DNA from: an uncultured Eubacteriales bacterium
GTDB taxonomy: Bacteria; Bacillota; Clostridia; Christensenellales; Aristaeellaceae
DNA length: 40,007 nucleotides
Assembly: GCA_900317565.1 (NCBI GenBank)
Contig: ONHI01000013.1
Coordinates: 1-40,007, forward strand
Direction: 5' to 3'
Shown here: positions 28,738 to 39,331 of the stretch, one piece after another
How positions within the stretch are numbered: position 1 is the first letter of the stretch
How the letters are laid out: the number at the start of each line of letters is the position of its first letter
The notes under the pieces: model-generated
What the model was told of the DNA's origin: nothing
Databases searched by the model: none
Seen by the model: only the letters and a program-made list of their open reading frames with translations
Made by a program: the position numbers and the translations under genes

Positions 28738-30666
28738 ATGCCGGAGCTGCACTACAGGGACGCGCTGAAGCTGGCGCAGAGGGAGTATCGTGCGTGCGTC
28801 GCCGCCGGGAAGGACCCCTGTCTTCCCGTGCTGGACGATATCATCCCCACGGAGCGCACCGCCACGGGGATAAACCTGGGGCTGGTCTCCATCCCCGCGG
28901 AGCTCATCGTCGGCACGAAGACCCGCGGGCGCACGAACGCCTTCGCCCGGAACTTCATGCCGCTGCTGGCGGAGAATTCGGAGTTCGCCCAGAAGTGGGA
29001 GCGGCTGTGCCAGTCCCACCTGGCGGAGGGCATCCGCGATCCCATCAAGGTGTATGAATACATGAACCGCTACTACGTCCAGGAGGGCAACAAGCGGGTC
29101 AGCGTGCTCCGCTTCTTCGGCGCGGTCAGCATCCCGGGAGAGGTGATCCGCATCCTGCCGAAGGACGCGGATTCAGAGGAGGCCCGGCTGTACCAGGAAT
29201 ACCTGGCCTTCAACCGGCTGAGCGGCGTCAACTATGTGGAGCTGTCCAAGCGGGGCGGCTATCAGAAGCTGCAGGCCCATGTGGGCAAGGGCGCGAACGA
29301 GCCCTGGGACGACGAGGACCGCCGCCGGTTCTCCTCCGCCTACCACGCCTTTAAACAGGCGTACGAGAGCGTGGGCGGCGACAGGCCCGCCATCCCCGCC
29401 GCCGACGCCATGCTGGCGTACCTGGAGATCTACGGCTATGACGCCCTGTGCGCCGGAGCACCGGCGGAGCTGCGCAAGGCCATCTCCCGGATGTGGGAGG
29501 AGGTCGAGCTGAAGCGGGAGGATTCGCCCATCGAGCTGAAGGCCGAGCCCGCGAAGGAGAAGAAGGCGGCGCTGCTGTCCAAGGTCGTGACCGCCGTGAA
29601 GCCCATGAAGGTGGCCTTCATCTACGACAAGAACCCGCGCAATTCCGCCTGGGCCTACGGGCACGAGCAGGGGCGGCTGCGCGCCGGGGAGGCGCTGCAG
29701 GGCAGGGTCGAGACCGGCGTCTACGGCGACGCCATCGTGAACGGGGAGACGCAGACCATCGAGCGGGCGATCGCCGACGGCCACAGGGTGCTGTTCACCA
29801 CCTCGCCGCGCATGCTGCCGGCCAGCCTCCAGGCGGCCGTCGCGCACCCGGAGGTGACGGTGTTCAACTGCGCCCTGAACCAGTCTCACCGCTATATCCG
29901 CACCTACTATCCCCGCATATACGAAGTGAAATACATCATCGGCGCCATCGCCGGGGCGATGGCCGAGGGCGGCGACATCGGCTATGTGTGCGATTATCCC
30001 ATCTACGGGCAGGTCGCGGGCATCAACGCCTTCGCCCTGGGCGTGCAGCTGGTCAATCCCCGGGCGAAGGTGGTGCTGGAGTGGTCGTCGGTGGACGGCA
30101 TCCGGGCCGCGAAGCGGAAGCTGGAGGACCGGGGGATCCGGCTGATCTCCTCCCAGGATTCCGCGCGGCTGGCCGACGGCAGCTTCGGCGTGAACGGGCT
30201 GACGCTTTCTGAAGAAGGCCGGTCGGTCATGCTGGCCGCGCCGCTGTGGAAGTGGGACGTCTATTACGAGGAGATCCTGCGTCGGCTGCTGGACAGGACC
30301 ATGAAGGAGGAATACGCGGCCAGCAGCAAGGCGCTGAACTATTACTGGGGCATGGCCGCGGGCGTGGTGGACGTGCAGTGCGCGCCCGAGCTGCCCGAGG
30401 GCGTGCGCAAGCTGGCAGAGTTTCTGAGGCAGGGCATCCGCCGGGAGCTGTGCGATCCCTTCCGGCTGCCGATCCGCAACCAGTCCGGCGAGGCCGTGGC
30501 CGGTGAGGGGGACGCGCTGCTGCTGGAGCAGATCATGGAGATGGACTGGCTCGTGGACAACGTGGTGGGCACGATCCCCGTCTACGACGCGCTGAAGCGC
30601 TACAGCAGGGCCACCGTGGACGTGATGGGCGTGGGCCCCTCCACGAAGGACAAGGCCGCCGACTGA
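28738..30666 (+). CDS. Cytoplasmic Bmp/PnrA-domain protein with ParB-like N-terminal region
   Basis: This 642-residue protein has no signal peptide or lipobox. Residues ~95-145 (DPIKVYEYMNRYYVQEGNKR, then VSVLRFFGA) resemble the ParB/Srx-type nucleotide-binding fold with its G-N-x-R signature. A linker with a basic/acidic stretch follows. From residue 290 (MKVAFIYDKNPRNSAWAYGH) to ~600 the protein matches the Bmp/PnrA family of nucleoside-binding proteins, with YEVKYIIGAIAGAMAEGGDI as the typical core motif. Family members are usually lipoprotein receptors for purine nucleosides; a cytosolic fusion implies a sensor or regulator instead. It is the first gene of a four-gene operon with a ribokinase-type enzyme and a deaminase-fold protein. 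GGGGGGGA precedes the ATG. Confidence 0.82.
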   Translation: MPELHYRDALKLAQREYRACVAAGKDPCLPVLDDIIPTERTATGINLGLVSIPAELIVGTKTRGRTNAFARNFMPLLAENSEFAQKWERLCQSHLAEGIRDPIKVYEYMNRYYVQEGNKRVSVLRFFGAVSIPGEVIRILPKDADSEEARLYQEYLAFNRLSGVNYVELSKRGGYQKLQAHVGKGANEPWDDEDRRRFSSAYHAFKQAYESVGGDRPAIPAADAMLAYLEIYGYDALCAGAPAELRKAISRMWEEVELKREDSPIELKAEPAKEKKAALLSKVVTAVKPMKVAFIYDKNPRNSAWAYGHEQGRLRAGEALQGRVETGVYGDAIVNGETQTIERAIADGHRVLFTTSPRMLPASLQAAVAHPEVTVFNCALNQSHRYIRTYYPRIYEVKYIIGAIAGAMAEGGDIGYVCDYPIYGQVAGINAFALGVQLVNPRAKVVLEWSSVDGIRAAKRKLEDRGIRLISSQDSARLADGSFGVNGLTLSEEGRSVMLAAPLWKWDVYYEEILRRLLDRTMKEEYAASSKALNYYWGMAAGVVDVQCAPELPEGVRKLAEFLRQGIRRELCDPFRLPIRNQSGEAVAGEGDALLLEQIMEMDWLVDNVVGTIPVYDALKRYSRATVDVMGVGPSTKDKAAD

Positions 30667-30705
30667 CCGCCGCGCCGGACGGGCGCAATGAATGGAGGAA
30701 TTGGT

Positions 30706-31608
30706 ATGCGGGAGAAGCGCGTGCTGAACTTCGGCTCGCTGAACCTGGACTATGTCTATCGGGTGGACCACTTCGTGCGCCCCGGCGAGACCCTCAGCGC
30801 GGACGCGCGAGTGGTCAAGTACGGCGGCAAGGGCCTGAACCAGTCCGTGGCGCTGGCGCGCGCGGGCGTCCGGGCGGCCCACGCGGGCTGCGTCGGCGCG
30901 GGCGGCGAGGGCCTGAGGGCGCTGCTGGACGGCGAGGGCGTGGACACCTCGAAGCTGGTGGCCGTGGAGGAGATGCAGGGGCACACCGTCATCCAGGTGA
31001 ACCGGGAGGGTGAGAACTGCATACTGCTGTTCGGCGGCTCGAACCAGTGCGTCACGCCGGAGCAGATCGCCGCCACGCTGGCGGACTGCGCCGCCGGGGA
31101 CTGGCTGGTGCTTCAAAACGAGATCAACAACCTGCCCGCCATCGTGGACGCGGCCTGTGAAAAGGGCATGACGATCGCGCTGAACCCCTCGCCCTGCGAC
31201 GGGAGGCTGGACGCGGTGGACTTCGGCAAGCTGTCCTGGCTGCTGATGAACGAGGTGGAGGCCGGCCAGATCACCGGCAGCGAGGACCCCGGGGAGGCCT
31301 GGCGCCGTCTGCACGGGCGCTGGCCGGGGCTCTCCGCGCTGATCACCCTGGGCAGCGCGGGGAGCGTGGCCTTCAGGGTGACGGGCTACGGGATCGAGAC
31401 CGCCCGGCAGGAGGCGTTCAGGGTCAAAGCCGTGGACACCACCGCCGCGGGCGACACCTACACTGGCTATTTCATCGCCGGGCTGATGTCCGGCATGCCC
31501 CTTCAGGATTGCATGCGCCGGGCGAGCAGGGCCTCGTCCATCAGCGTGACGCGCCTCGGGGCCGCGGATTCCATACCCTTCCAGGCGGAACTGGACGACG
31601 AAGCATAG
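30706..31608 (+). CDS. PfkB/ribokinase-family sugar kinase
   Basis: The protein has 300 residues. The N-terminal signature is NFGSLNLDYVYRVDHFVRPG, then KYGGKGLNQSVALARAG, the ribokinase-like substrate-binding glycine pair. The C-terminal signature DTTAAGDTYTGYFIAGL contains the catalytic Asp of the G-A/G-G-D motif, with Ala in place of the usual first Gly of GAGD. It phosphorylates a sugar, most probably ribose or a nucleoside, with ATP in the cytoplasm. GGAGGA sits 6 bases before the ATG at 30706; the ATG at 30688 is less likely. It lies 39 bases after the Bmp-domain gene, which supports a nucleoside or ribose link. Confidence 0.92.
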   Translation: MREKRVLNFGSLNLDYVYRVDHFVRPGETLSADARVVKYGGKGLNQSVALARAGVRAAHAGCVGAGGEGLRALLDGEGVDTSKLVAVEEMQGHTVIQVNREGENCILLFGGSNQCVTPEQIAATLADCAAGDWLVLQNEINNLPAIVDAACEKGMTIALNPSPCDGRLDAVDFGKLSWLLMNEVEAGQITGSEDPGEAWRRLHGRWPGLSALITLGSAGSVAFRVTGYGIETARQEAFRVKAVDTTAAGDTYTGYFIAGLMSGMPLQDCMRRASRASSISVTRLGAADSIPFQAELDDEA

Positions 31609-31663: not shown

Positions 31664-34048
31664 ATGACGGAGTTCTATTTTCTGATATATACGCTCATCG
31701 CCCTGATACTGTCCATGGTGGATTTCCAGTTTGCCGTGAAGGCCTTCAGGCGGCAGGGAAAGGTCGGCCGGGCGCTCGGCTGGTCGGCGGCGTCCGCGGG
31801 GGTCATCACGCTGGCCTACCTGGGCAGCGTGCACACGACCAACCCGCTGCTGGTTTCCCTGTGCTCGAACCTGACGTTCATCAGCATCGACTGCATGCTG
31901 GTGTCCCTGGCCTACTATGCCTTCCTGGTGACGGGCCTGTACCGCATGAAGGGCAACCGGATCGTCAACAACACGATCCGGCTGCTCGCCGCGGCGGACA
32001 TGCTGGTGCTGCTGGTCAACATATTCACCGGCTCGGCGGTGACCTTTGAGCGGCTGGAGCCGGTGGGCGTCCGCTACCAGATGAAGACGCCCTACGTCAT
32101 CCACCTGGTGTTCACCTATTTCATCGTGGTGCTGACGCTGATCGTGCTGATCCACAAGAGCGTGAAGACGCCCCGCAAGTACCGCAACCAGTATCTGCTG
32201 ATCATCGCGGCCATCGGGGTGGTGGTGCTGATCAACGCCATCTTCCTGTTCCAGGACCAGGGCTCCTTCTTCACGAAGGTGGACTGCTCCACGCTGGGCT
32301 ACAGCATCGGGCTGTTCCTGATGTACTGGACGGCCTACGACTACAAGCAGAACGACATGCTCAACTCGCTGTCCAAGACGGTGGTGGAGAACGTCAACCA
32401 GGGCATCGTGCTGTTCGACTACATGAACGAGCTGATCATGTTCAACGCCAGGGCCCAGGCGCTGCTCAAGGGCGTGCCGCTGCGGGAGGCCATGCTCGTG
32501 GACGACTTCTGCGGGGCCATCGGCATCCCCGTGGGCGAGGCGGACCACTTCAGCACCCAGTGCGACATCCCGGGCTGCGTGCCCATGCGGTGCGATTACA
32601 GCGTGCTCAGGGACGAGCGGGACGGCGCCATCGGCCAGCTCTACGCCTTCACGGACATCACCCGGGACACGGACCTGACCACGGGCTTCGAGTACGCCAA
32701 GGACTATGCCTTCACGGACCGGCACGCCGCGCTGTTCCCCGCGCCGACGACGGTGATCGTGTTCGACATCATCGGGCTGAGGGAGATCAACCGCGTGCGG
32801 GGCCGGGACCGGGGCGACCAGATGATCCGCGAGCTGGCGAAGGAGATGCGGCAGGCGCTGCCCCAGAACGCCACGTTCCTGCGGGGCTTCGAGGCCTATC
32901 TGATCGCGCTGTGCCCGGGCAGGGAGGAGGCGGACATCGCCGCGCGGGCGGAGCCGCTGCTGCGCGTGGAGGGCGAAAAGCGCATCTACGGCCTGAGCAC
33001 CACGGGCAGCCGCACGCTTTCCGGGGCGCTGGAGGCGGCCTATCGCAGCATACAGATCAAGAAGCTGCTGTGCGCCGGCTCGCTGCGCTCCCAATCCCTG
33101 GCGTCGCTGGTGCGCGCGCTGAAGGAGGCCGACGCCGACACGGAGGACCACGTGCGCCGGACCCAGAAGATGGGGGCCATGCTGGGCCGCCGCATCCACC
33201 TGACGGACGCGCAGCTGGCCCAGCTGGAGCTGCTGTGCCTGCTGCACGACATCGGCAAGATCGGCATACCGCTGGAGATATTGAACAAGCCGGGCAAGCT
33301 GGCCGACCAGGAGTGGGAGGTGCTGCGCACCCACCCGGAGAAGGGCTACCAGATCGCCATGTCCGCGGACGAGCTGAGCACCATCGCGGACATGATACTC
33401 TACCACCACGAGCGCTGGGACGGCCGCGGCTATCCCAAGGGCCTGAAGGGGGACGAGATCCCGATCCTCTCCCGGATCATATCCATCGTGGACGCCTACG
33501 ACGCCATGGTGAACGACCGCAGCTACCGCAAGGCGCTGAAGCCGGAGAAGGCCCAGGAGGAGATCCGGGTGAACGCGGGCACCCAGTTCGACCCGGCGCT
33601 GGCGGCGGAATTCCTGGCGCTGCTGGCGGACCACCCGGAGATCGCCCTGGGCGAAAAGGTGGGCCCGGAGGCCGAGCGCGGCGTGGTGACGGCGCTGGCG
33701 ACGGAGGCGGACGCCACGGGCGTGACGGTGCCCATCGCCTACAGCCGCTACATGCTGGATCTGAGCGAGACCATCATCGGGGTGGACCATCGCTTCGAGG
33801 AGATCACCGGCTATACCGCGCTCGACGCCGTGGGAAGGATGTCCCAGTTCGACCTGATCCCGGCGGAGGACCGGGCCCACTATATGCTCCAGGTGAGCAA
33901 GCAGTTCACCCAGGGCGACATGGCCTACCTGCGCCACGAGATCATGCGCAAGGACGGCAGCCGGATACAGGTCGCCTGCTACGGCAGGCGCTACTACGAT
34001 TCGGCGGTCAAGGCATACCGAAACGAAATCATCATCTTCCGGCTGTGA
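31664..34048 (+). CDS. 7TM-PAS-degenerate GGDEF-HD-GYP-PAS signalling protein
   Basis: The protein has 794 residues. Residues 1-240 form about seven membrane helices of the histidine-kinase 7TM sensor type. Residues ~250-330 are a PAS domain (VENVNQGIVLFDYMNELIMF). Residues ~360-460 look like a GGDEF domain that has lost its motif (LRGFEAYLIAL where GGDEF is expected), so it should not make cyclic-di-GMP. Residues ~490-640 are an HD-GYP phosphodiesterase: HDIGKIG with His528/Asp529, HPEKGY, HHERWDGRGYP (GYP at 589-591), and a following VDAYDAM. A second PAS domain (~690-794) closes the chain. It should degrade cyclic-di-GMP or a related cyclic dinucleotide at the membrane. It is the third gene of the nucleoside-linked operon, 55 bases after the kinase. 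Confidence 0.92.
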   Translation: MTEFYFLIYTLIALILSMVDFQFAVKAFRRQGKVGRALGWSAASAGVITLAYLGSVHTTNPLLVSLCSNLTFISIDCMLVSLAYYAFLVTGLYRMKGNRIVNNTIRLLAAADMLVLLVNIFTGSAVTFERLEPVGVRYQMKTPYVIHLVFTYFIVVLTLIVLIHKSVKTPRKYRNQYLLIIAAIGVVVLINAIFLFQDQGSFFTKVDCSTLGYSIGLFLMYWTAYDYKQNDMLNSLSKTVVENVNQGIVLFDYMNELIMFNARAQALLKGVPLREAMLVDDFCGAIGIPVGEADHFSTQCDIPGCVPMRCDYSVLRDERDGAIGQLYAFTDITRDTDLTTGFEYAKDYAFTDRHAALFPAPTTVIVFDIIGLREINRVRGRDRGDQMIRELAKEMRQALPQNATFLRGFEAYLIALCPGREEADIAARAEPLLRVEGEKRIYGLSTTGSRTLSGALEAAYRSIQIKKLLCAGSLRSQSLASLVRALKEADADTEDHVRRTQKMGAMLGRRIHLTDAQLAQLELLCLLHDIGKIGIPLEILNKPGKLADQEWEVLRTHPEKGYQIAMSADELSTIADMILYHHERWDGRGYPKGLKGDEIPILSRIISIVDAYDAMVNDRSYRKALKPEKAQEEIRVNAGTQFDPALAAEFLALLADHPEIALGEKVGPEAERGVVTALATEADATGVTVPIAYSRYMLDLSETIIGVDHRFEEITGYTALDAVGRMSQFDLIPAEDRAHYMLQVSKQFTQGDMAYLRHEIMRKDGSRIQVACYGRRYYDSAVKAYRNEIIIFRL

Positions 34049-34094
34049 CAAGGCGCGCATGAGTGCGCCCGGCCGGAACGAAAGGAGGCGCGAT

Positions 34095-36527
34095 ATGCTC
34101 TTTTTCCAGCAGTTCTACCTGGACCGCGAGAAGGACATCGTCGTGGATCTGTACCTGGAGGGAGAGCGGATGTATCACGTCATCCGTACCCCGAACCACC
34201 ATACCGGCAACCTCATCACGAACCTGGCCCGGCTCTGCGGGCTGGAGACCTCCATGGATGAAAACGGCCTGAAGGTCATCCGCGGCGAGGTGCCCTGCTA
34301 TTACGACGGCGACAACCGCCGGGTGTACATCCTCCGGCTGGGGGACACGAAGGTGGCCAACATCTATCCGGACGGGCTGGTGGAGCTGAAGGCCTCGGTC
34401 CCGGCCATCTCCAAGACGCTGATGAGCCAGACCAAGGATTATCGCCTGGGCATCGAAAAGACCATCGTCAAGACCTACATCCGCAGCGATTGCAAGTTCC
34501 GCACCGACCTGCACACCCACATGAACGGCAACCTGCCGCCGGACGCGCTGATCGCCCTGGGCATCACCCACCAGATCCGCTATCCCTATTATTATGTGAA
34601 AAAGCTGGGTCTGCAGTGTACACTGGAGCAGATCGCCCGGCTGGAGGCGGCGCGGGTGGTCGCGGAGCAGTCGCTGGGGGAGACCCCGCTGACGGGACGG
34701 CACCGGGAGCGGCGCATCGACGATTTCACCTTCATCAACTTCGCCGACCTGATACTCGGCAACCCGGAGCACGCCGCCGAGAACATCGAGCGGATACGCA
34801 ATTCCCTGACCATCCCCAAGGACGGCCAGGCGGTGTTCGCGAACCTGGAGAAGGTGTATCTGTACCGCTATGTGTTCACCAAGGGCGTGCCCGCCCAGGA
34901 CCCCTTCGTGGGCGTGAACATCGACCGCATCCCCGACCGGGAGGTCCGGGCCTATACCGAGCGCATGCGCCGCGACCGGGAGGACGACCGCTATCGGGGC
35001 AACACGCTGTACCAGGACCTGCTGCTGTGGATCGCCCGGGAATACCAGCGCCACGGCATCGTGTACGCCGAGATCTCCGACACGGCGCTGTTGAACCGGG
35101 CGGAGTATCCCGACAAGCTGCGCCAGATCCACGAGGTCATGCCCGCCGTCACCCGGGAGACCGGCGTGCTGCTGCGCTTCCTGGCGGGCATCCGGCGGGT
35201 GCCGCTGACCATCGTGAAGGACAAGGTCACCCCCAACGACTACCTGGCCGAGAACCTGCGCTGCCTGCGGGCCGTGGCCGGGGACCCCTATGTGGCCGGG
35301 AGCGACATCATCGGCGAGGAGATCAACGACATACTGGAGCTCAGAAGCGTCATCCGCGAGCTGGTGCGCCTGGCGGGGGAGCACCCCGGCTTCGTGATCC
35401 GCATCCACGCCGGGGAGAACGACAGCCTGCGGGACAACGTGGCCAACAGCATACGCTGCGTGGCCGAGTCGCTGGAGCCGGGCCAGCCCATGCCGCCGCT
35501 GCGCCTGGGCCACGGGCTGTACACCTGCGACCTCAGGAGCGAGAAGGGCAAGCGGCTGCTGGCCCAGATGCGGGAGCTGGGCGTGACGCTGGAATTCCAG
35601 ATCACCTCCAACGTGCGCCTCAACAACCTCTCCCGGCTGGAGCGCCATCCGCTGCGCCGCTATCTGAACGCCGGGGTGCGCTGCGTGCAGGGCACCGACG
35701 GCAGCGCGCTGTACGGCACGAACTCCATCGACGAGGAGCTGAGCCTGGAGAAGCTGCTGGGGCTGACCCAGGCGGACCTGCGCCGCATGCGCCAGGCCGA
35801 GGACGACATACTCGCCCGGAGCCTGCGGGTGTTCGACGAAAAGGCCGAACGCTTCCGGGAGGAATGCACCGGGGACATCGAGCGCTTCTACCGCGCCAGG
35901 CTTGAGAGCGCCGACCGCGCCCCCGCGGACCTTTGGCGGGGCGGGGACAAGGTGGCCTCCGAGGAAGCGCTGAAGGACCTGCTGGCGACGCTGCCGAAGG
36001 GGCTCACGCCCATCGTGGTGGCCGGGGGCAGCTTCAACAGCAGCCGCCGGAGCACCCGGCTGCGCCCGGAGGACCGCGCCTTCATCGACGCGCTGCTGGC
36101 CCAGGCCGACCCGGAGAAGGTCTGCTTCGTGGTGGGCCACGCGCTGGCCGCCCAGGAGGGCTATCTGGTGAAGCAGGCGGCGGAGCGGTTCCGGGTGTTC
36201 GCCATCGTGCCCAACCGGCTGACCCACGCCCAGGCCGCTCGATTGAACGAGGCGAGGCCCGGCGTCCTGGTGTCCATTGAAAGCACCGGCGCGGGCCTCT
36301 ACAAGAGCTTTGCCTATGAAATTTTCAAGCGCCAGCCCTCGGCGCTGATCGCCTTTGACGGCAACTCCGCGGCGCTGAACCTGATCCAGGAGGCGCGCAA
36401 CGCCCGCCACAAGTGCCGCATATTCATCAATCCCCGCTCCCGCGGCCTCGCCGCCAAGGGCAAGCTGCTGGAGGGCTATGTCCAGCCCCTGGGGGACGCG
36501 GCGGCGCTGCTGGACGCGATCCGGTGA
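34095..36527 (+). CDS. Adenosine deaminase-fold metallohydrolase fused to SLOG-like Rossmann domain
   Basis: The protein has 810 residues. An N-terminal beta-rich region (~1-130) precedes a deaminase-like barrel with TDLHTHMNGNLPP (metal ligands His140, His142), IRIHAGEN (His438, catalytic Glu441), RLGHGLY (His473), FQITSNVRLNN, and QGTDGSALYGTNS (metal ligand Asp535). Mouse adenosine deaminase has a second Asp right after this ligand that contacts the purine; here it is Gly536, so the substrate may differ. From ~630 the chain enters an alpha/beta domain with TPIVVAGGSF, VCFVVGHALAAQEGYLVKQA and ALIAFDGNSAALNLIQEARN, resembling SLOG/LOG nucleotide-binding folds. AAAGGAGG lies 6 bases before the ATG at 34095. 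It is the last gene of the operon, 46 bases after HD-GYP. Confidence 0.82.
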   Translation: MLFFQQFYLDREKDIVVDLYLEGERMYHVIRTPNHHTGNLITNLARLCGLETSMDENGLKVIRGEVPCYYDGDNRRVYILRLGDTKVANIYPDGLVELKASVPAISKTLMSQTKDYRLGIEKTIVKTYIRSDCKFRTDLHTHMNGNLPPDALIALGITHQIRYPYYYVKKLGLQCTLEQIARLEAARVVAEQSLGETPLTGRHRERRIDDFTFINFADLILGNPEHAAENIERIRNSLTIPKDGQAVFANLEKVYLYRYVFTKGVPAQDPFVGVNIDRIPDREVRAYTERMRRDREDDRYRGNTLYQDLLLWIAREYQRHGIVYAEISDTALLNRAEYPDKLRQIHEVMPAVTRETGVLLRFLAGIRRVPLTIVKDKVTPNDYLAENLRCLRAVAGDPYVAGSDIIGEEINDILELRSVIRELVRLAGEHPGFVIRIHAGENDSLRDNVANSIRCVAESLEPGQPMPPLRLGHGLYTCDLRSEKGKRLLAQMRELGVTLEFQITSNVRLNNLSRLERHPLRRYLNAGVRCVQGTDGSALYGTNSIDEELSLEKLLGLTQADLRRMRQAEDDILARSLRVFDEKAERFREECTGDIERFYRARLESADRAPADLWRGGDKVASEEALKDLLATLPKGLTPIVVAGGSFNSSRRSTRLRPEDRAFIDALLAQADPEKVCFVVGHALAAQEGYLVKQAAERFRVFAIVPNRLTHAQAARLNEARPGVLVSIESTGAGLYKSFAYEIFKRQPSALIAFDGNSAALNLIQEARNARHKCRIFINPRSRGLAAKGKLLEGYVQPLGDAAALLDAIR

Positions 36528-36539
36528 CGCGGCGCGGGC

Positions 36540-37067
36540 TCAATCGGCCTGCTCCGCCTCCTCCAGCGACTCCACCACGGTATCGTAGGCCTGCCGGACC
36601 TCCTCGTGCGTGTGCGCATCGGCGTTCACCAGCGTGTTCCATGCCCGGGTGACGTCCTCGCCCGCCTGGGCGAGCCAGGCCTCCACCGCGGGGCGGTTCT
36701 GGTCGATCAGCGCCTGGGTGTCCGCGGCGATCTGCCGGGCCCAGTCCGTCACGCCGATGTCCTCGGCCCACTGGGAGACGTCGTCCAGCGCGCCCTGCGC
36801 CCATCCGGAGAGACCGGTTTCCTCGGCCCACTGGGAGACGCTGTCGACCGCGCCTTCCACCCAGCCCGTGACGCCGGAATCCACGGCCCAGTCGGAGATG
36901 GCCTGCCCGGCGTCCCCGGCCATGCCCACCAGGGAATCCCAGGTCTTGCCCAGGTTGGACAGGAAGTCTTCGGCGTGGGAGGCCTGCGCGGCAGGGCCGG
37001 CGACGCCGGTCAGGGCGCTCAGCAGCAGCGTCAGCGCCAGCAGCAGGGAGATGTTCTTTGTACGCAT
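36540..37067 (-). CDS. Small secreted protein with three Trp-containing 20-residue repeats
   Basis: This 175-residue protein has a signal peptide (MRTKNISLLLALTLLLSALT, cleavage near AQA-SHA). Residues 58-117 are three 20-residue repeats beginning S-D/Q-W, with Trp at 60/69, 80/89 and 100/109 and a Gly-Ala-x-Asp turn in the first two. The acidic, helical C-terminal part contains EAWLAQAGEDVTRAW. I do not recognise a family. The repeats may form amphipathic helices at the cell surface or in a self-associating bundle (inference). GGAGG precedes the ATG at 37067. A longer frame to 37157 would start upstream of the promoter and is rejected. It is convergent with the deaminase-fold gene, 12 bases apart. 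Confidence 0.72.
   Translation of the reverse strand: MRTKNISLLLALTLLLSALTGVAGPAAQASHAEDFLSNLGKTWDSLVGMAGDAGQAISDWAVDSGVTGWVEGAVDSVSQWAEETGLSGWAQGALDDVSQWAEDIGVTDWARQIAADTQALIDQNRPAVEAWLAQAGEDVTRAWNTLVNADAHTHEEVRQAYDTVVESLEEAEQAD
36717..36896 (-). repeat. Three 60-bp repeats inside the small secreted protein gene
   Basis: Three 60-bp units encode the 20-residue Trp repeats. Units two and three share long near-identical DNA (for example CTCGGCCCACTGGGAGACG on the plus strand), which points to duplication within the gene. Confidence 0.8.
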
Positions 37068-37128
37068 GATATCGTCCTCCTTCGGCAGGAACAGGCATCG
37101 CCCCTGCCGCGTTTTCGTGTTTGTGCCC

Positions 37129-37157
37129 ATTATACAGGGGAACGGGGGGCGTGTCAA
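37129..37157 (-). promoter_or_regulatory. Perfect-consensus sigma-A promoter
   Basis: On the minus strand TTGACA (37157-37152) and TATAAT (37134-37129) both match consensus fully and are separated by exactly 17 bases. The start codon of the small secreted protein is 61 bases downstream. Strong expression is expected. Confidence 0.88.
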
Positions 37158-37267: not shown

Positions 37268-39331
37268 ATGAAGAGAGTGTACCTTGCGACGATACTGCTC
37301 GTCCTGCTCGCCGCGTTGCCGTTCGCGCGCCCCGCGGCGGCGGAGGGGGAGGACCCCGCCGAGTGGACGGTGATATTCTACCTGTGCGGCAGCGACCTGG
37401 AGAGCAGGCACGGCTACGCCACGGGCAACCTGGAGGAGATCGCGGACTGCGCCAGCTATTCCGCCATGCACGGCCTGTTCCTGGAGGAGACGGCCCCGGA
37501 GCTGTCGGACGCGGCCCCCGGGACCGTGAACGTGGTGATCGAGACCGGCGGCAGCCGGGAATGGCACGCCGCGGACGGGGACCTGGGCATGCAGATCGAT
37601 CCCGGCGCGCTGCAGCGCTGGCGCTTCGACATGCCGGACAGGATCAGCTTTGAGGATGAGGTGTGCCCCTTCGTGCTGGAGGACACGCAGCCCCTGGCCA
37701 GCATGGCCGATCCGCAGACGCTGTGCGATTTCATCCGCTGGGGCGTCGAGAACCACCCGGCGAAGAAATACGCGCTGGTGCTGTGGGACCACGGCCTGGG
37801 CAGCAAGGAGGGCCTGTTCATCGACGAGCTGTTCGGGGGCGACACCATGTCCCTGGACGCGCTGCGCACCGCGCTGGCGGAAGGCGGCGCGCAGTTCGAG
37901 GCCGTGATATTCGACGCCTGCATGATGGGCAGCATCGAGACCGCCTGGGCCATCAGCGGCAATGCGCGTTGGATGGTCGCCTCGGAGGAGGTGGTGGCCG
38001 GGCAGGGCACCGCCATCGGCGATTGGCTCCAGCAGCTGATATTCACGCCCCAATGGGACGGCAGGCGCCTGGGGCGCTGGATCTGCGACATGACCCAGCG
38101 AAAATACGCCGGAAGCGACGGCGGCCAGGCCCAGGACACGCTCACCTGGGCGGTGATCGACCTGGATCAGATCGAGCGCGTGGCGCGGCTGTTCGACCGG
38201 TTCTTTGCGGATTGGGGGACGACCTACGCCACCAATCCCTTTATGATGATGAACAAGGCCTCGGTGCTGAAGGAGGCCTTTGAGTTCGGCCTGAACGGCG
38301 ACAACATGATCGACCTGGCGGGGATATTCTACAATCCCTACCTCGCCGTGAACCTGGACTGGGACATGTACAGCGAACTGCTGGACGCGCTGTCGGACGC
38401 GGTGGTCTACAACGTCCACGGTCCGGACCGCAGCCAGGCGGGCGGCCTGTCCTTCTGCTACGCGGTGGATCTCACCCCGAGCGAGCTGGACGCCTACGCG
38501 CTCAACTGCCCTTCGCCCAGCTACCTGGCCTTCCTGGACGCCATCAACCCGACCTGGACGGCCCCGGATTGGGTGTATGAACAGGCGGAGCGCCTGCCGG
38601 AGATCCTGGAGCTGCCGGATTATCAGGTGAGAGTCGAAAAGTACGTGGACGGCAACGGCGCCCCCGCCATCGCCATCAAGGAGGGCTATGCGAGCGTGAA
38701 CATGGTGCTCGTCGACCTGTATCGTCTGAATGACCAGACGGGCAGGACCGTGCGGCTGGGCAGCACCCTGGCGCAGCCTGATTTCGACGAGGCAAGGGGG
38801 CTGATCTACAACTTTAATGGCTTCGGCGTGTGGCCCACGGTGGAGGGGGTGCACTGCGATGCCGAGCTGGTGTTCAAGGGCGAAATGGGCATGGCGCTGT
38901 ACAACATCCCCGTGCGGATCGGCTCGGACAACTATCTGCTGCGGTGCGGCCATGATGAGTTCGCCGACGAGCCGCTGACCGTCTACGGCCTGTGGGAGGG
39001 CTATGATGCCGACAGCGGGGTGTTCAACCGCAACGTGGTGCCCCTGTCCGCGGTGGTGGGGCAGGAGTTTACGCTGCTCTATCCCATCGACGGCGGGGAA
39101 GAGGGCCGCACGCTGTATGAGGCCAGCGAGCCGCTGACCATGTACCGTCAGCTGGAGATGGCGCCCAAGCCCCTGGCGAGCGGCATCTACTACATTGACT
39201 TCTGGGTGAAGGATGGCTTCAAGCGCCGCCTGGAGGTCGGCAGGGCGGAGGTATACTGGGACGGCGAAACCCTGAGCGTGCCGGAGGGCGCGTGGCAGGG
39301 GGAGATGACGCTGACCGTGCCGGAGGAATGA
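37268..39331 (+). CDS. Secreted clostripain-family (C11) cysteine peptidase
   Basis: The protein has 687 residues with a signal peptide (KRVYLATILLVLLAALPFA, cleavage near AAA-EGED). The mature start WTVIFYLCGSDLESRHGYAT is typical of clostripain-like proteins. The catalytic His175 lies in LVLWDHGLGS and Cys218 in VIFDACMMGSIETAW, the standard C11 pair. After the peptidase region (~30-400) comes a ~280-residue beta-rich C-terminal part that often accompanies secreted members. It would cleave proteins after basic residues outside the cell, if family specificity holds. GGAGG lies 5 bases before the ATG at 37268. It is divergent from the Trp-repeat protein gene. TATATT at 37188 is a possible -10 without a clear -35, and GGGGCC/GGCCCC (37204-37218) forms a leader hairpin. 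Confidence 0.92.
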   Translation: MKRVYLATILLVLLAALPFARPAAAEGEDPAEWTVIFYLCGSDLESRHGYATGNLEEIADCASYSAMHGLFLEETAPELSDAAPGTVNVVIETGGSREWHAADGDLGMQIDPGALQRWRFDMPDRISFEDEVCPFVLEDTQPLASMADPQTLCDFIRWGVENHPAKKYALVLWDHGLGSKEGLFIDELFGGDTMSLDALRTALAEGGAQFEAVIFDACMMGSIETAWAISGNARWMVASEEVVAGQGTAIGDWLQQLIFTPQWDGRRLGRWICDMTQRKYAGSDGGQAQDTLTWAVIDLDQIERVARLFDRFFADWGTTYATNPFMMMNKASVLKEAFEFGLNGDNMIDLAGIFYNPYLAVNLDWDMYSELLDALSDAVVYNVHGPDRSQAGGLSFCYAVDLTPSELDAYALNCPSPSYLAFLDAINPTWTAPDWVYEQAERLPEILELPDYQVRVEKYVDGNGAPAIAIKEGYASVNMVLVDLYRLNDQTGRTVRLGSTLAQPDFDEARGLIYNFNGFGVWPTVEGVHCDAELVFKGEMGMALYNIPVRIGSDNYLLRCGHDEFADEPLTVYGLWEGYDADSGVFNRNVVPLSAVVGQEFTLLYPIDGGEEGRTLYEASEPLTMYRQLEMAPKPLASGIYYIDFWVKDGFKRRLEVGRAEVYWDGETLSVPEGAWQGEMTLTVPEE

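Follow-up and report, generated by a model that had tools for sequence, protein, structure and literature searches.

A gene family of gut and rumen Clostridia joins an adenosine-deaminase-type core with altered substrate-contact residues to a SLOG-like domain

The gene and its parts

The window analyzed here is the whole stretch of 40,007 nucleotides of contig ONHI01000013.1 (GCA_900317565.1), from an uncultured Eubacteriales bacterium. On its forward strand, at 34095..36527, it carries a gene that we call ADA-SLOG, in which a core of the adenosine deaminase (ADA) superfamily is followed by a domain of predicted SLOG fold, and whose product may deaminate a phosphorylated purine. The protein (P0001) has 810 amino acids, with start codon ATG 34095 and stop codon 36525-36527. 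The reading frame is already open from ATG 34059, which would give 822 amino acids. ATG 34095 is nonetheless the likely start: it is preferred because AGGAGG (34083..34088, a probable ribosome-binding site by its sequence) lies 6 nucleotides upstream and because homologue matches begin at that residue. The gene is single-copy in its own genome.

The N-terminal region (residues 1-130, 34095..34484) is beta-rich in the full structural model, and has no significant Pfam match in 49 family members and none among PDB sequences. The ADA-type triosephosphate isomerase (TIM) barrel follows at about residues 135-570 (34497..35804), with a stretch at about 210-315 that could not be aligned to ordinary ADAs. 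Four motifs mark its active site: HTHMN (residues 140-144, 34512..34526), with metal ligands H140 and H142 and with N144 at the site of mouse Asp19; HAGE (residues 438-441, 35406..35417), with H438 and E441; GHG (residues 472-474, 35508..35516), with H473; and TDG (residues 534-536, 35694..35702), with the metal-binding D535 and with Gly536 at the site of mouse Asp296. The C-terminal SLOG-fold domain (residues 612-810, 35928..36524) is supported by its predicted model and by Foldseek.

Scanning a single genome for each species returned 265 stretches encoding relatives, and since only the best 80 were kept, the homologue survey leans toward closer relatives. Alignment A1 holds the window protein and 48 further loci, 56-79% identical to it. 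The ratio of nonsynonymous to synonymous substitution rates (dN/dS) is about 0.19-0.23 overall against L001, L002 and L004, indicating purifying selection; it is lowest in the N-terminal region (0.06-0.08) and highest in the C-terminal region (about 0.27-0.32).

The core belongs to the adenosine deaminase superfamily

The ADA-SLOG protein is a member of the adenosine deaminase superfamily. Pfam A_deaminase matches it with E 1.6e-15 and 57.4 bits, above the curated cut-off of 27, and a PDB sequence search with an E limit of 1 gave 11 matches, of which the top nine are named adenosine deaminases. Aligned profile to profile with 26 other PF00962 proteins, the family gives Prob 98.9 and E 3.3e-17 for residues 316-568; the HxH part aligns separately and weakly (Prob 14.8). 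This comparison set takes 24 proteins from the class survey and two from the family survey, leaving out family members, three RdrB-like frames, a fragment of 56 amino acids (G253) and the sub-cut-off G068 and G070, whose loci (L143, L144) hold no frame with ADA motifs. The metal and catalytic set of the superfamily (HxH, H, E, H, D) is complete in 49/49 aligned sequences: the six residues listed by the initial annotation (H140, H142, H438, E441, H473, D535) are all present and invariant. The model of the full protein (A1; mean predicted local distance difference test score, pLDDT, 82.4; predicted template modeling score, pTM, 0.79) retrieves ADA, ADAL/MAPDA, AMPD and ADA2 structures, with best E 5.2e-10 and 57 matches at E <= 0.001; a viral fold search gave none at that threshold.

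The protein shares with ordinary Add the TIM barrel, the metal ligands and the HAGE, GHG, SN and TD motifs, but it is more than twice as long, has additional regions at both termini and an insert, and carries Asn144 and Gly536. NCBIfam adenosine deaminase models match it far below their cut-offs; for TIGR01430, whose equivalog cut-off identifies an adenosine-acting ADA, it scores 43 bits versus 216.55. The family also lacks the residue pair expected of such an enzyme, Asp19 with Asp or Asn at 296. These distinctions would correct a likely automatic annotation of ADA-SLOG as plain adenosine deaminase. No further PF00962 gene was found in its own genome, a draft that is 89.8% complete, and across 60 genomes of the window's family PF00962 occurs in 14, as 12 frames of more than 800 amino acids like P0001 and two small ones.

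Substrate-contact residues are altered

The profile-profile alignment sets D535-G536 on the TD-N/D pair of ordinary ADAs. At the purine-contact position (mouse Asp296), Gly is found in 81/81 family members, that is, the window and 80/80 homologous loci; in the 26 other clostridial ADA-fold proteins this position holds Asp in 13, Asn in 13 and Gly in none. The initial annotation, which had noticed Gly in place of the Asp of TDD, was right about the loss of the aspartate; as a refinement, Asp is not universal elsewhere, since half of the comparison proteins have Asn. Homologues with TDD at this position were looked for and found at 0/80 loci. Gly536 is invariant alongside the six metal and catalytic residues in the 49 aligned sequences, as are Gly407 and Glu441, which we take to contact purine N3 and N1, respectively.

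The second change concerns the site of mouse Asp19. Position 144 was counted in the 80 rows with a visible HxH motif (L052 is not among them): 77 carry Asn and three carry Ser (L044, L045, L077). Among 17 clostridial ADAs of full length, 15 have Asp at this site and two have Glu. In mouse ADA, Asp19 binds the 5'- and 3'-hydroxyls, according to the excerpted text of PMC12669630. The same excerpt describes TaqCad1, in which Asn replaces the mouse Asp296 and Gly replaces Asp19, as lacking adenosine deamination yet making inosine triphosphate. Escherichia coli RdrB acts on ATP and dATP (adenosine and deoxyadenosine triphosphate) and not on adenosine monophosphate (AMP) or adenosine (PMC9994260, in excerpt), and three clostridial proteins matching RdrB models have Asn, Thr and Gly at the Asp19 site. 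Given that Asp19 is lost in superfamily enzymes acting on ATP, we infer that its loss in ADA-SLOG fits a phosphorylated substrate.

Two other explanations start from the same residues. Loss of the N7 contact could make room for a modified purine, so that the enzyme would deaminate an imidazole-ring or N6-modified (6-substituted) nucleoside or nucleotide. The glycine seen throughout the family and in none of the 26 comparison proteins would suit this idea, as would the presence of N6-methyl-AMP deaminases (6iv5, 6ijm) among the fold matches; however, the best ADAL/MAPDA match (E 6.9e-9) is no better than that of ordinary ADA (5.2e-10), and we see no pointer to any particular modified substrate, so we regard it as improbable. 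Still less probable, in our judgment, is a catalytically weak or inactive ADA-fold protein serving as a binding or regulatory scaffold. Replacement of two substrate-binding aspartates is what such a scaffold might show, but none of the metal ligands varies, nor does the catalytic Glu or His, and TaqCad1 keeps its activity although both of its aspartates are replaced (PMC12669630, in excerpt).

The C-terminal domain is SLOG-like in its predicted fold

Modeled alone (A2), the C-terminal domain reaches pLDDT 90.6 and pTM 0.89. Its best Foldseek match in the PDB is DprA (4ljk, E 1.0e-4, prob 1.00), and further matches include molybdenum cofactor (Moco) carrier proteins (6y01, 2iz5), LOG (1t35, 5zbj), YgdH and TRPM8. 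By the classes we assume for these structures, 49 of the 50 matches listed belong to the SLOG superfamily, the exception being 7dl7, and so presumably do all 19 at E <= 0.001. Searches of Pfam and of PDB sequences with this domain gave no match above controls. The predicted fold of residues 612-810 thus resembles that of the SLOG superfamily (DprA, LOG, Moco carrier protein, YgdH, the TRPM N-terminal region), and it supports a SLOG-like domain whose relation lies at the level of fold, not of sequence. The Rossmann-type, SLOG-like domain proposed initially is supported by structure comparison, though not by sequence, and the fold search, which could have turned up a different known fold, returned SLOG proteins. 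Toprim was also considered, as Toprim_2 matches 15/49 members (best E 0.0081), and dropped because no Toprim is named among the 50 fold matches listed.

Invariant residues of the domain are GGSF, E688, E729, YKS and G756-N757. LOG proteins carry the motif PGGxGTxxE. This catalytic motif is absent from the conserved C-terminal sequence, a difference from SLOG proteins of that kind; a glycine-containing stretch reads DGNSAAxNLIQE, and its correspondence to the LOG motif is a matter of judgment. The point bears on a further alternative, a bifunctional purine-nucleotide catabolic enzyme whose ADA core deaminates while the SLOG domain cleaves the N-glycosidic bond, like LOG or PpnN. LOG and YgdH are among the fold matches, the C-terminal domain has invariant residues, and a ribokinase-type gene and a gene for a protein with a Bmp/PnrA-like domain lie upstream in the window; but the LOG motif is missing and those two genes are not conserved next to homologues, and we think such an enzyme unlikely.

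Comparison with RdrB and Cad1

Proteins joining a sensor to a deaminase are familiar from phage defence (Cad1), and RdrB is a partner-driven deaminase. Three large ADA-fold proteins of the class survey match PADLOC RdrB models (E 5e-21 to 8e-35), one of them adjoining an RdrA match. They keep the DD pair (TDDQ, IDDP, SDDP; HxH motifs HFHLN, HVHLT, HLHAG), in contrast to the TDG of the ADA-SLOG family. None of the 49 family members matches the RdrB models (E 0.01), and we rejected RdrB as the identity of the protein; a profile comparison of the family with RdrB, for which only three RdrB sequences were at hand, gave Prob 2.6. The layout is nevertheless alike: about 800-900 amino acids, an N-terminal extension before HxH and inserted sequence separating HxH from the third His, with the HxH at H152/H154 in E. 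coli RdrB (PMC9994260, in excerpt) and at H140/H142 in P0001. The Asp19 site lacks Asp in the RdrB-model matches as it does in ADA-SLOG. Judged from the sequences, this RdrB-like layout is resemblance, not membership. RdrA has no match in the window's own draft genome, a weak test given that control genomes also gave none; to that extent the earlier remark that no RdrA-like ATPase is adjacent is supported.

In another locus of the class, the genes L141:8539-11991 (-) and L141:5787-8525 (-) comprise a clostridial RdrB-model match and a neighbor of 1151 amino acids without PADLOC match (E 0.01), possibly a divergent RADAR partner.

The PADLOC CARF_ADA model matches 40/49 members weakly (best E 1.6e-8), and in the window protein the match spans residues 313-550 only. 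Like Cad1, ADA-SLOG joins an ADA domain to a Rossmann-type, nucleotide-sensing type of domain, and TaqCad1 also lacks both aspartates; but the sensor of Cad1 is a CARF domain placed before the ADA domain, whereas ADA-SLOG has its SLOG-fold domain after it, and the replacements at Asp19/Asp296 are Gly/Asn in TaqCad1 versus Asn/Gly in ADA-SLOG (PMC12669630, in excerpt). Set beside Cad1, ADA-SLOG also lacks a conserved neighbor of any kind. These comparisons do not show the ADA-SLOG protein to be Cad1. A separate search for Cad1 in the class through PDLC01908 gave 11 matches, which we rejected, in frames of 329-358 amino acids (ordinary ADA length) and from profile position at least 243.

The initial annotation had raised anti-phage RADAR systems, and the resemblances above invite the corresponding hypothesis: a stand-alone, ligand-gated immune effector akin to Cad1 or RADAR, in which the SLOG domain senses ADP-ribose (ADP, adenosine diphosphate) or a cyclic nucleotide and unleashes toxic deamination of the nucleotide pool. 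In its favor are the shared combination of Rossmann-type sensor and ADA, the two aspartates lost in TaqCad1 as well (PMC12669630, in excerpt), the weak CARF_ADA matches, and the use of SLOG as the sensor part of Thoeris ThsA, as stated in the excerpt of a review (PMC12948488). We nonetheless give it a low probability, in view of the distribution and neighborhood of the gene.

Distribution and gene neighborhood

ADA-SLOG is carried by 11/391 genomes of the class and 2/398 of the phylum sample, the window's own genome counted in each, and by 21/100 genomes of the window's own family (own included; one of the 21 is a fragment at a contig end), where the carriers spread over 9/50 genera. Carriers from the same genus form 17 pairs versus 3.1 expected, a value reached in 0/20,000 shuffles, which ignore relatedness among genera. 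Within genera carriage is uneven (own genus 3/4, g234 1/3). Such a distribution looks more like that of an inherited gene than of a defence gene with frequent gain and loss, and it is compatible with defence too. One assembly, JAFWIM, has two ADA-SLOG copies on different contigs (L071, L072).

No gene is conserved beside the homologues across the 81 loci, in which no search aimed at Cas10 was made. When codon-scored open reading frames were clustered, the family itself was the only cluster present in most loci (80/81, the gene going unrecognized in L045); the next commonest, counted at any position along the stretch, occurs in 16 loci, and flanking genes are shared within groups of few loci. 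We judged recurrence from this clustering because the separate neighbor scan hardly covers the neighbors of distant homologues: with one protein taken per cluster, it covered 134 of 187 candidates, and 133 of these come from L001-L055. Each Pfam family is present in at most three of the 134 scanned neighbors. Of 51 defence models at E <= 1e-20, the 25 listed each match one neighbor and none recurs; they include DRT helicase, GajB, SspA, DndA, PDC-S05, CARF_PDDEXK and mad3, and some, in our judgment, catch ordinary genes.

No match in plasmid (47) or phage (3) records covers 80% of the query, and most of the matches listed (30 and 3) either bear the annotation adenosine deaminase or have none. 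A viral-contig collection yielded no relative. ThsB_TIR was not found in the window's own draft genome. Taken with the absence of any RdrB-model match, of a conserved signal-making or other gene alongside and of a recurrent defence-model neighbor, and with the clumping of carriers by genus, these results weaken the defence idea.

A candidate deaminase of phosphorylated purines

We favor a stable physiological role over phage defence because ADA-SLOG has no conserved neighbor, clumps by genus and has no full-length match in the phage, plasmid and viral collections searched. As a whole, the explanation that we put first, while rating it somewhat short of an even chance, is that ADA-SLOG encodes a deaminase of phosphorylated purines, modulated by its SLOG domain and inherited vertically as a physiological gene. 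The protein, presumably cytosolic, would be a zinc-type enzyme of the ADA superfamily that hydrolyzes the 6-amino group of its substrate, a purine nucleotide with a 5'-phosphate and not free adenosine. The nucleotide would enter the barrel, where Glu441 and a metal-bound water would deaminate it, and a nucleotide-type ligand on the C-terminal SLOG-fold domain would alter this activity. In certain Clostridia of gut and rumen, the gene would serve nucleotide homeostasis as a vertically inherited, stand-alone unit. We infer activity, phosphorylated substrate, ligand binding, modulation, vertical inheritance and role from the evidence given above. The interpretation in the initial annotation is thus partly supported: the altered deaminase core and the SLOG-like fold agree with it, and action on a signaling nucleotide or modified nucleoside, with gating by the SLOG domain, would be a further possibility.

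Several points count against this explanation. The Asp19-site change is no proof of a phosphorylated substrate, because nine of the 26 other ADA-fold proteins, shorter and divergent, also have other residues there. Substrate binding and catalysis by mouse ADA are severely impaired when Asp296 is mutated to Asn (PMC12669630, in excerpt), and Gly536 could for that reason mean weak or lost activity on adenine. The full model is weak near the active site (pLDDT < 50 at 370-377, 408-410, 506-513 and 539-549), and no RdrB or Cad1 structure is among the best 50 of its 57 fold matches. For the C-terminal domain, the 19 matches at E <= 0.001 have moderate TM-scores (0.52-0.62, by query), and hhalign gave Prob 0.17 for DprA and 0.11 for LOG, within the 0.05-2.4 of 23 neighbor-family controls, using 23 clostridial DprA proteins (from 24 loci, L175 having no usable frame) and nine LOG proteins. 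Modulation by this domain is suggested by analogy with Cad1 and ThsA only.

In a bolder form of the proposal, ADA-SLOG would be a self-sufficient signaling enzyme in one protein: its SLOG domain would sense a nucleotide-derived ligand and gate the deaminase core, whose remodeled base pocket would take some purine nucleotide and not adenosine. Gut Clostridia would then have, fixed in their core physiology, an equivalent of Cad1 that works independently of CRISPR. This we consider rather unlikely, though less so than the alternatives discussed above. If the proposal is true, ligand-gated nucleotide deamination exists in ordinary physiology too, with a different sensor fold, and the invariant Gly at the N7-contacting residue makes the question of the substrate directly testable. 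The literature searched contained no published description of the ADA-SLOG architecture, although a printed mention remains possible. In excerpt, one review (PMC12948488) names adenosine deaminase and the SLOG domain without joining them, and no paper was found naming adenosine deaminase with Lachnospiraceae and SLOG.

Other genes and further ADA-fold proteins

Nine short ADA-fold proteins of the comparison set (L124-L130, L136, L137; about 311-328 amino acids) have TDD or SDD and no Asp at the Asp19 site; in six of them the start motif is HNH.

Within the window, the gene at 28738-30666 (+) encodes 642 amino acids, of which only 291-450 give a Bmp/PnrA-like match and the first 290 are without Pfam match; it is followed by the ribokinase-type gene (30688-31608). 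A membrane sensor (31664-34048, +) ends just before ADA-SLOG and is not conserved beside homologues; it combines HisKA_7TM, PAS, a sub-cut-off GGDEF, an HD_5/HD domain and a C-terminal PAS, and by eye reads RGFEA where GGDEF is expected. Downstream, 37289-39331 (+) encodes a clostripain-family protein (Peptidase_C11) with a secretion-signal-like start, scoring far under the clostripain equivalog cut-off. Between ADA-SLOG and this gene, 36540-37157 (-) encodes 205 amino acids with a signal-peptide-like start and only sub-cut-off Pfam matches; its sequence contains roughly three imperfect repeats, each some 20 residues long (WAVDSGVTGWVEGAVDSVSQ, WAEETGLSGWAQGALDDVSQ and on).

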